Program-made: the position numbers and the translations under genes
The notes under the pieces: generated by a model
The model's input: only the letters and a program-made list of their open reading frames with translations
Database searches by the model: none
What the model was told of the DNA's origin: nothing
In this document: one piece after another, positions 7,469-9,940 of the stretch
How the letters are laid out: the number at the start of each line of letters is the position of its first letter
Numbering within the stretch: position 1 is the stretch's first letter
NCBI GenBank assembly: GCA_029936675.1
Contig: JAPYSB010000002.1
Coordinates: forward strand, 1-64,000
DNA from: Dehalococcoidia bacterium
Lineage (GTDB): Bacteria > Chloroflexota > Dehalococcoidia > Lucifugimonadales > UBA826
Length of the DNA: 64,000 bases
Reading direction: 5' to 3'

Positions 7469-8275
7469 TTAATTAGTAAACCTACCCCCATCCACGTTAA
7501 TAGCCTGACCTGTAATATTTTCGGCGAGATCGGATGCTAAAAAGGCCACCATATTTCCAATATCTTCCGGAGTCTGCTCTCTTTGAAGCGGAATCCAAGT
7601 TTTAACAATTTGATCGAAAAGCTTTTTACCTTCAAGACCTTCGGTTTTAAGACTGCCTCCAAATTGAGATCTTTTTCTTGCGATCGATTCCCATATTGGA
7701 GTCCATATGAGCCCCGGGCAGACGGCATTTACATTCACATTATATTCAGCCATTTGTAAAGCATGCGATTGTGTCCAACTGACAACTGCTGCCTTCGAAG
7801 TACTGTAATGTGGTGAATCTGGGCTTCCCTGCCGAGCGGATATTGAAGCAATGTTAATAATTTTGCCGTGTTTCTGGGTCTGAAACTCTTTGCTAACTCT
7901 TTCGGAAACCTTTACAACCCCTCTTACATTAACTTCATATACCTCAGTCCAATCTTGATTATTCGGAATTTCTCTATCCGACCAACCTTCAGATCCGATT
8001 ATTCCAGCATTGTTGACCAATATATCAATTTTTTTTCGATCCCTGATGTGTTCTGAAACAATTTCATCAACTGAATTTTCATTAGTGACATCCATTTGCC
8101 TTGCTCTTAATTTGTCGCCGGAACCGCAATGTTGTAGTGTGTCCTCTGCGCTTTTCTCAGATATATCTGTCACTAACACATTTGCCCCTGCCAAGACCAG
8201 AACCGAACATATACCCCTACCTATACCGCTCCCTCCACCCGTGACTATAGCTTCTTTACCAGACAAATTAATCAT
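7469..8275 (-). CDS. Short-chain dehydrogenase/reductase
   Basis: A classical SDR with the cofactor motif TGGGSGIG (residues 12-19), the NNAG motif, catalytic Ser144/Tyr157/Lys161 and a C-terminal GQAINVDGG. It is an NAD(P)H-dependent oxidoreductase of unknown substrate. The frame extends to an ATG at 8305, but the ATG at 8275 has GAGGT about ten bases upstream. That ATG also lies just two bases after the TAA of the preceding selenoprotein gene, so I take 8275 (268 aa). It is the last gene of the rpsF-ssb-rpsR-ppiC-hom-arsC-like operon. Confidence 0.88.
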   Translation of the reverse strand: MINLSGKEAIVTGGGSGIGRGICSVLVLAGANVLVTDISEKSAEDTLQHCGSGDKLRARQMDVTNENSVDEIVSEHIRDRKKIDILVNNAGIIGSEGWSDREIPNNQDWTEVYEVNVRGVVKVSERVSKEFQTQKHGKIINIASISARQGSPDSPHYSTSKAAVVSWTQSHALQMAEYNVNVNAVCPGLIWTPIWESIARKRSQFGGSLKTEGLEGKKLFDQIVKTWIPLQREQTPEDIGNMVAFLASDLAENITGQAINVDGGRFTN

Positions 8276-8277
8276 AT

Positions 8278-8622
8278 TTAGTCCGACCTCAAAATCTTTT
8301 TCCATTCCGAAGTTACAAATCTTTTGCCCTGGTACATTACGATGGGTCTTTTGATTAACCTAGGTTCTTTAATCATTAGATCCAACATTTCGGAGGCAGT
8401 CATATTTGATTTTTCCAAACCTAACTTTTTGAAAGAGGGGCTCCTCCACGAAAATAGCTCCGAAGGATTATCTCCTGATAAAACCTCCTGAAGTTCCTCT
8501 AAAGAAAAGGGGTCGTTGAAAAAATCTCTTATCCCACATTCAAATCCAGCCTGCGAAAGCTCCGCTTTCGCTTTTGTACAGCTACTTCAACGATTCCAAC
8601 CGTAAAACAGCAAATGCTGCAT
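8278..8622 (-). CDS. ArsC/Spx-family selenoprotein with in-frame UGA (Sec12)
   Basis: Ordinary ORF calling misses this gene because codon 12 is TGA (8589-8587). Read through as selenocysteine, it gives 114 residues from ATG 8622 to TAA 8280. The N-terminus is MQHLLFYGWNR-U-SSC, a thioredoxin-fold active site where Sec replaces the first Cys of a CxxC (U12, C15). The rest follows the ArsC/Spx/YffB pattern: KAKAELSQAGFE, DPFSLEEL, a WRSPSFKKLGL segment and the conserved EPRLIKRPI (residues 86-94). GGAGG lies five bases before the ATG. The gene starts 25 bases after the hom stop, and its TAA is two bases before the SDR ATG. A SECIS-like hairpin follows the UGA. Likely a thiol/selenol oxidoreductase or arsenate-reductase-like enzyme. 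A nonsense pseudogene is the alternative but fits poorly. Confidence 0.87.
8553..8571 (-). promoter_or_regulatory. Bacterial SECIS-like hairpin in the selenoprotein mRNA
   Basis: On the minus-strand mRNA a perfect 8-bp stem GCGAAAGC/GCTTTCGC closes a GGA loop. The loop starts 23 nucleotides after the UGA at 8589-8587. As I recall the bacterial SECIS model, it asks for a 3-14 nt apical loop about 16-37 nt after UGA with a G in the first two loop positions; all are met. Such hairpins recruit SelB to insert selenocysteine. Confidence 0.8.
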
Positions 8623-8647
8623 GCAAACCTCCAACGTTACAAGCCGG

Positions 8648-9940
8648 TTATTCGACCACCCTGATCACATTGCCTATCATTCTAACAACTTCTAGTCCCC
8701 GCAAGCTCGATACAGCCCTCGTTACAGAACTTTCGCTGGCTTCGTGAGTCATAATGACCAATTCAGCATTTGTAGATTGATCACCCAATCCTTTTTGGAT
8801 AAAAGATGAGATGCTGATCCCGCAATCTCCTAGCACAGCAGCAATTCTAGCTAGTACTCCTGGTTGATCCTCAGCTTCAAGTCTAAAATAATATTTGGTT
8901 ATCAATGTATCTATTGATCTAATCTCTATCTCATCCGATAACCGGACCGGGTCTAGTAAGTCAGTGCCGCCAGCAATGGTTCGGGCGATGTTGACAATAT
9001 CTGCCACTACGGCACTACTGGTGGGCATAGAGCCTGCGCCCGGGCCATGAAACAATACCTTATCTAACAAATCCGTCTCTACTTCCACGGCATTCAGAGC
9101 ATCATCCACCTTAGCTAACATTTGCTCCTTTGGTATCAATGCAGGATGAACTCTTCCTAATACACTAGAATCGGTTCGAGTAGCTATGGCTAACAGCTTT
9201 ATCGAATATCCTAATTCTTTAGCGTATGAAAAATCCTTATCAGTAAGGCTGGTTATCCCTTCAGTAAATATATCAGTATCTTTCACGCTAGCCCTGAACG
9301 CTAAAGTAGACAATATCGATAATTTATATGCCGCATCTATCCCCTCTACATCACTAGTTGGATCTGATTCAGCATAGCCCAATTCTTGGGCCTCCTGCAG
9401 CACTTGCTGATAATCAGCTTGTTCGTTCGCCATTCGAGTTAGAATATAATTGGTAGTTCCATTGATGATTGCTTTAATAGATTTGATGTCGTTAGCCACC
9501 AAATCACGCATCAAGGGTGAAATAATTGGTATTCCTCCGCCCACACTTGCTTCGAAAAGTACTCTAACATTATTCTCTCTAGCCAAAGAAAATATCTCAG
9601 AGCCATGTTTTGATATCACTTCTTTGTTCGCGGTAACTACATGTTTCCCATTTTTTACCGCTGCCAAAATCAATTCCAATGCTGGGTGTTCACCACCCAT
9701 CAATTCCACGACAATATTTACTGATTCATCATTTATTAATTCTTCAGGATTATCGCCTAAAATATTTTGAGAAACCATGAATTCTCTTTGCTTCGAGGTA
9801 TCACGAACCGCTACCCTTATTAGCTTTAGTGGCGACCCAACGTGACTATGCAATGCGGTAGAGTTTTCAGTTATTGCCCTCGCTACCCCTGATCCAACTA
9901 CTCCCATTCCAATGAGTCCAACCCCTATAGAGCTTCTCAT
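8648..9940 (-). CDS. hom: Homoserine dehydrogenase
   Basis: NAD(P)-dependent homoserine dehydrogenase, which reduces aspartate semialdehyde to homoserine in the threonine/methionine branch. The N-terminal Rossmann motif is GLIGMGVVGSG (residues 8-18). The conserved NKEVISKHG and the GTTNYILTRM and AYKLSILSTLAF segments follow, and a C-terminal ACT domain (about 350-430) provides likely feedback control. Length 430 is typical. It lies ten bases downstream of the SurA/PpiC-like gene and 25 bases upstream of the selenoprotein gene. Its pathway partners lysC and thrB are in a separate cluster at 22431-24575. Confidence 0.95.
   Translation of the reverse strand: MRSSIGVGLIGMGVVGSGVARAITENSTALHSHVGSPLKLIRVAVRDTSKQREFMVSQNILGDNPEELINDESVNIVVELMGGEHPALELILAAVKNGKHVVTANKEVISKHGSEIFSLARENNVRVLFEASVGGGIPIISPLMRDLVANDIKSIKAIINGTTNYILTRMANEQADYQQVLQEAQELGYAESDPTSDVEGIDAAYKLSILSTLAFRASVKDTDIFTEGITSLTDKDFSYAKELGYSIKLLAIATRTDSSVLGRVHPALIPKEQMLAKVDDALNAVEVETDLLDKVLFHGPGAGSMPTSSAVVADIVNIARTIAGGTDLLDPVRLSDEIEIRSIDTLITKYYFRLEAEDQPGVLARIAAVLGDCGISISSFIQKGLGDQSTNAELVIMTHEASESSVTRAVSSLRGLEVVRMIGNVIRVVE

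Follow-up and report, generated by a model that had tools for sequence, protein, structure and literature searches.

The window analysed here, a stretch of 64,000 nucleotides from a Dehalococcoidia bacterium (assembly GCA_029936675.1, contig JAPYSB010000002.1, positions 1 to 64,000), carries on its minus strand a gene that very probably encodes a selenoprotein. The predicted product is a 114-residue protein of the ArsC/Spx fold in which the UGA at codon 12 would be read as selenocysteine (Sec), creating a U-x-x-C active site. The elements of the gene are as follows:

8278..8622, minus strand: predicted selenoprotein coding sequence of 114 amino acids, with residue 12 predicted to be Sec and TAA as the stop (from the sequence reading, Pfam PF03960 and the ratio of nonsynonymous to synonymous change, pN/pS)
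8587..8589, minus strand: TGA at codon 12, in frame and predicted to encode Sec, where the (U/C)xxC motif opens (TGA or Cys in relatives)
8578..8580, minus strand: codon of Cys15, predicted resolving Cys of the UxxC pair (Cys in 30 of 30 rows)
8553..8571, minus strand: hairpin of the bacterial Sec insertion sequence (bSECIS) type, stems 8571-8564 and 8560-8553, loop GGA at 8563-8561
8628..8632, minus strand: GGAGG ribosome-binding site, read from the sequence

The frame opens with an ATG at 8622-8620, set apart from the GGAGG (8632-8628) by a 5-nt spacer, and continues through 114 codons to a TAA that ends at 8278. Its sole internal stop is the TGA at 8589-8587, with 11 codons before it and 102 open codons after it. 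Behind the UGA, at a distance of 15 nt, stands the hairpin (8571-8553, GCGAAAGC-GGA-GCTTTCGC), which has an 8-bp stem and a 3-nt loop that starts 23 nt past the UGA. A preliminary description of this DNA had set out the 115-codon frame (stop included), its ribosome-binding site, the single TGA with the open codons behind it, and the hairpin with its GGA loop, and each was found in place when the sequence was reread. The bSECIS consensus is a rule of distance and loop: a hairpin just downstream of the UGA, with a G among the first two bases of its loop. We scanned both strands of the window for stops that have 8 or more codons between a start and themselves, 60 or more open codons behind them, and a hairpin (stem of 7 bp or more; loop of 3-8 with a G among its first two bases, starting 15-31 nt past the stop). 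The scan returned one TGA, that at 8589-8587, and no TAG or TAA. An Rfam scan of the window had no match that reached a gathering score.

Relatives of the gene have either TGA or a Cys codon at the Sec column. A first search covered 60 genomes, own included, and found a match in 41; from the matches listed, 30 loci were aligned, including the window's own gene. The column holds TGA in 27 of them (one being the window's own) and TGC in the other 3, and Cys15, the second position of the pair, is invariant in all 30 rows. When the search was widened to the order (250 genomes, the own genome among them; E <= 0.001), 177 had a match, with at least 150 match rows; among the matches listed, a single TGA is present in 140, and 10 are free of stops. 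Cys was read in five of the stop-free rows (G055, G056, G046, G101 and G107), and the remaining five belong to the same genus (g62) as G101 and G107. Named loci, taken as the best 80 of 202 found, comprise 73 with TGA and 7 with Cys. Joining these 80 to the 30 aligned loci, minus duplicates and rows with N, gave an extended set of 85 distinct active-site segments, 77 with TGA and 8 with a Cys codon. The preliminary description had placed the UGA at the first Cys of a CxxC and looked to homologues for Cys or U there, and the column bears this out, being TGA or Cys in the rows read. Some genomes (G009, G012, G022 and G083) gave two matches, and every one of these that is listed carries a single TGA (the second match of G083 is not among the matches listed); they may be paralogues or strain mixtures.

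Conservation of the hairpin follows the same division. Across the 27 TGA rows, 208 of 216 hairpin cells are paired and 22 rows are perfect, against means of 122 and 124 and a maximum of 142 paired cells when the same rows are synonymously re-coded; pairing in the 3 Cys rows extends to 8 of 24 cells. The extended set gives 582 of 616 cells paired in the 77 TGA segments, 54 of them perfect (synonymous re-coding: mean 378, maximum 410), and 20 of 64 in the 8 Cys segments, where simulation gives a mean of 23. All 77 TGA segments have a G at loop position 1 or 2. Because pairing is kept with TGA and lost with Cys, the hairpin tracks the UGA and not the amino-acid sequence. Both sides of the stem changed in 25 cells of the TGA rows with 96.3% of cells paired, compared with at most 5 such cells and 32-57% pairing in hairpins slid along the alignment as controls, and for three of five covariation measures none of 500 shuffles was as high.

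Selection on the gene was assessed in a sample of the window gene and four genus-mates, in which ten pairs were pooled, so that the same change is counted repeatedly. The pN/pS ratio is 0.17 after the UGA and 0.05 before it (few sites), the other two frames give 1.44 and 1.55, and third codon positions hold 198 of the 301 differences after the UGA. Purifying selection acts on both sides of the UGA. This bears on the alternative that the gene is a pseudogene or a start/stop artefact, the UGA being a real stop and the 3′ part dead or re-initiated. Such an account would fit the use of UGA as the gene's own terminal stop in 9 of 30 loci, which makes it an ordinary stop elsewhere, and it would also fit the database entries: among 87 proteins found with the window protein, a CxxC in the first 30 residues occurs only in P0031, a Cys form, leaving 86 without this segment, and 10 of 11 proteins whose starts were read begin inside the gene, past the UGA. 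It is extremely unlikely in the face of selection on both flanks, exactly one TGA in 140 of 150 rows among the matches listed, a Cys codon wherever a TGA-less column was read, and a hairpin that is present in TGA rows and gone in Cys rows. Random stops in relatives, named beforehand as a sign of decay, were not what the rows contained; relatives instead share the same single TGA. A pseudogene is rejected on the strength of selection, the conserved single TGA and the Cys counterparts, and general reassignment of UGA is likewise rejected, since TGA terminates the same gene in those 9 loci.

The preliminary description had also asked for selA, selB, selD and tRNA-Sec in the same genome, and all four are there. 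The tRNA-Sec scores 65.5 bits, over its cut-off, and is also called by ARAGORN, and selB (351 bits), selD (384 bits) and selA (530 bits) all exceed theirs. The selD gene (C10:144035-144958) has one in-frame TGA, and for this reason the selenophosphate synthetase of this genome is probably itself a selenoprotein; a crude pattern search, the only one made for its SECIS, gave no match. Across the order, selA is over its cut-off in 201 of 250 genomes. We tested selB and tRNA-Sec in 20 chosen genomes, 10 stop-free and 10 of the TGA form, 6 of the latter picked for missing selA. Two Cys-form genomes, G046 (97% complete) and G056 (91% complete), have no selA or selB over cut-off, with best tRNA-Sec matches of 44.7 and 50.7 bits, respectively. 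Four TGA-form genomes that lack selA (G011, G039, G076 and G082) have both selB and tRNA-Sec.

Several results weigh against the selenoprotein reading or against a simple exchange of Sec for Cys on loss of the machinery. The single-sequence folding energy of the hairpin is ordinary (z of -0.06, -0.89 and -0.93 in three windows, dinucleotide shuffles), two of the five covariation measures lie near shuffles (22 and 74 of 500), and a few TGA rows pair poorly in the register used (of the 77, two form 4 pairs and one forms 5). The strength of the hairpin is its conservation, not its single-sequence energy. The tRNA-Sec match of G056, at 50.7 bits, exceeds the Rfam cut-off of 47; we infer that matches of 48-53 bits are tRNA-Ser-like, because they co-occur with a 65-75-bit match in many genomes. 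G055, a Cys form, and five of the seven g62 genomes retain a tRNA-Sec of 66-70 bits, and therefore loss of the machinery is not the sole road to Cys; of the other two g62 genomes, G104 has selB, and in G102 (76% complete) there is no selB and no match exceeds 53 bits. Finally, two TGA-form genomes lack parts of the machinery over cut-off: G014 (55% complete) is without selA, selB and tRNA-Sec, and G188 (79% complete) has selB only, with no selA or tRNA-Sec. Draft incompleteness is the likely cause of such gaps in TGA-form genomes.

With Cys replacing Sec, the protein matches Pfam ArsC (PF03960) at 3.4e-16, with 59.8 bits against a cut-off of 24. Its structure model (predicted local distance difference test, pLDDT, 88.2) reaches Z scores of 13-15 against the top-scoring ArsC, YffB and Spx structures, which places it in the ArsC-superfamily fold, and the ArsC/Spx family match claimed earlier holds at this level. 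The window protein falls under the cut-off of all 11 NCBIfam families listed, including NF041106 (ArsC_rel_Se_1), where it scores 14.3 bits against 85, and in profile comparison the family is closer to Spx than to E. coli ArsC. Because the curated cut-offs of the ArsC and Spx families are both unreached, the family names arsenate reductase and Spx were dropped; judged by these profiles, 'arsenate reductase' says too much and 'ArsC/Spx-fold' is the right name.

The protein is unlikely to be specifically an arsenate reductase (ArsC) that uses selenocysteine and supplies an arsenite exporter: it scores 48.1 bits with TIGR00014 against a cut-off of 106.05, and its profile match to 1i9d spans only chain residues 1-99 of 141. 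The column of Arg60, a catalytic residue of E. coli ArsC, is Arg in the window protein and in 20 of 30 rows, with N in 7 and K in 3, so that 10 rows depart from it. The exporter gene acr3, the only one searched for, was matched in just 3 of 16 genomes, two of them over the cut-off and the own genome in two sub-cut-off pieces, all three within the window's genus; the protein is therefore far more widespread than the Acr3 exporter. In two genus-mates no arsC-like open reading frame (ORF) of 90 or more amino acids was seen by eye beside acr3, one of the contigs being 4.5 kb with N. The acr3-like pieces of the own genome lie at G000:C45:3-713 and C22:3942-4271, and acr3 is present in two of the four genus-mates searched.

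In a second alternative, the protein would act like Spx, as a regulator that binds the alpha C-terminal domain of RNA polymerase and carries a redox switch, with a Sec-Cys pair replacing the Cys-Cys switch. The profile-nearest solved structures are six Spx chains (3.6e-22 to 6.4e-20), the (U/C)xxC sits where Spx has its motif, and the best NCBIfam match is TIGR01617, to which all 30 rows match (best 1.1e-21; scores against the cut-off are known for the window protein only). It is nonetheless very unlikely, given that the window protein scores 61.3 bits with TIGR01617 against a cut-off of 75.05 and falls far under those of the Spx models. At the place of Spx Gly52, presumably the contact to the RNA polymerase alpha C-terminal domain, G occurs in 1 of 30 rows and two fewer residues precede it, and beyond the matched part Spx runs for about 22 more residues, the window protein for about 5.

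How the selenoprotein might work can be outlined from its motif and model. SelB and Sec-tRNA(Sec) would bind the hairpin behind the UGA, so that Sec is inserted and translation does not terminate, as the machinery genes and the conserved hairpin suggest. Sec12 lies just ahead of helix 1 in the structure model. By analogy with the chemistry of glutaredoxin, ArsC and Spx, Sec12 would be the attacking selenolate and Cys15 would resolve it as a selenenylsulfide, with the invariant Arg92-Pro93 placed near the active site; glutaredoxin, thioredoxin or a small thiol may then re-reduce the protein. Somewhat more probably than not, it is a general selenol/thiol reductase, of thiol-disulfide or oxyanion type, working through such a UxxC selenenylsulfide cycle. 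This reading is favoured by the wide distribution of the gene over the order and by the lack of a constant partner gene, none having emerged from the flanks searched, those of the best 80 of 202 loci. The redox role is predicted from fold and motif. A more specific proposal is that of a core selenoprotein of the SAR202/Dehalococcoidia order, an Spx-fold Sec-Cys redox switch with a sensing job unlike that of described ArsC or Spx, which most of the order and Syntrophia-like bacteria would have retained in its Sec form, with Cys where the machinery was lost; we consider it quite unlikely.

The gene stands between two neighbours on the same strand:

8648..9940, minus strand: upstream neighbour, homoserine dehydrogenase (Pfam PF00742, PF03447, ACT)
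7469..8275, minus strand: downstream neighbour, short-chain dehydrogenase/reductase (SDR; Pfam PF13561/PF00106)

The Pfam families agree with the position between hom and an SDR gene given in the preliminary description, and the SDR ATG (8275) comes two bases beyond the selenoprotein TAA, as also stated there. Among the 80 loci, homologues of the homoserine dehydrogenase occur in 18 and homologues of the SDR in 18. By eye, the flanks also hold MutS-like (9 of 80), MutL-like (9, both together in 8), IspH-like (7) and PrsA-like (8) genes, the flank ORF lists including shadow frames of the selenoprotein gene itself. In L110, L133, L139, L142, L155, L156, L157 and L160 the selenoprotein gene is flanked on its two sides by genes that by eye are mutS/mutL-like. 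Elsewhere in the window, at 396-1688 on the minus strand, a 430-aa protein with cysteine clusters resembles, by eye, a reductive-dehalogenase-like or QueG-like Fe-S protein; at 1e-5 it matches no Pfam family.

Among named records the closest seven, with 68-94% identity, are bins of SAR202, Chloroflexi or Dehalococcoidia, and more distant TGA forms come from Syntrophaceae, Smithella and other delta-type bins. Sec forms of the Syntrophaceae/Smithella type have the same kind of hairpin (L100, L105, L108, L113-L115, L117, L119-L125 and others). In a tree of 87 rows and 112 columns, with an arbitrary root and 34 of 84 inner branches open, the delta-type TGA forms make up one starred group of 27 rows beside Chloroflexota rows. 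Transfer between phyla is no more than suggested by so weak and arbitrarily rooted a tree. The tree requires at least four U/C changes, three of them forced by starred branches, and it sets the Cys row of G055 apart from the U row of its genus-mate G016.

Together, these results expose an annotation gap, in which 86 of 87 database relatives are without the active-site segment and the window protein misses the cut-offs of all 11 NCBIfam families listed. They give a probable host lineage for a selenoprotein type known from ocean reads, and describe an ArsC/Spx-fold protein with Sec as the rule and Cys as the exception in the rows seen. The Cys forms without detected Sec machinery (G046 and G056) offer, beside the Sec forms, a natural comparison for what Sec contributes.

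Of the characterized relatives, Spx of B. subtilis (1z3e/3gfk) differs in that the window protein is below the Spx/MgsR cut-off, has no Gly at the Gly52 place, two residues fewer and no C-terminal tail. E. coli ArsC (1i9d; TIGR00014) differs in that the window family has a second Cys at +3 and an Arg60 column that varies among the rows, and the window protein lies below the cut-off. NF041106 is related, with 18 of 30 rows matching at E <= 1e-3 (best 1.7e-10), and does not catch the window protein; like it, it is an ArsC-family UxxC entry in the table of a 2026 review, as far as that table goes (PMC13188914). In the portions of the literature consulted, ArsC/Chloroflexi terms gave nothing in PMC12013277 and PMC5029168, no paper listed paired SAR202 with the word selenoprotein (two paired it with selenocysteine), and pairing Spx with Sec terms returned, by title, only plant or food reviews. 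The preliminary description had mentioned ArsC-like selenoproteins from marine metagenomes, and the published reports confirm this: a UxxS form is listed from the Sargasso Sea (PMC1088965) and from Global Ocean Sampling (GOS; PMC2398784), in which Sec likewise replaces the catalytic Cys, but in a UxxS and not the UxxC motif found here, and a UxxC form is listed from GOS as well. The latter, 'Arsenate reductase 2' (cd03032; 42 selenoproteins in 21 samples and 238 Cys homologues in Table 2 of the 2008 report), is alike in ArsC family, UxxC motif, aquatic metagenomic origin and Cys homologues, and unlike in being tabulated from reads with no host named in that table, our comparison being one of description and not of sequence (PMC2398784). 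A UxxC arsenate reductase-like selenoprotein is also listed in a 2022 review (PMC9312934). Because GOS Table 2 and the two reviews, in the parts cited, list UxxC selenoproteins of this arsenate reductase-like type, the window protein is the same kind of protein as the UxxC ArsC-type selenoproteins already listed from ocean reads and reviews (PMC2398784; PMC9312934; PMC13188914).
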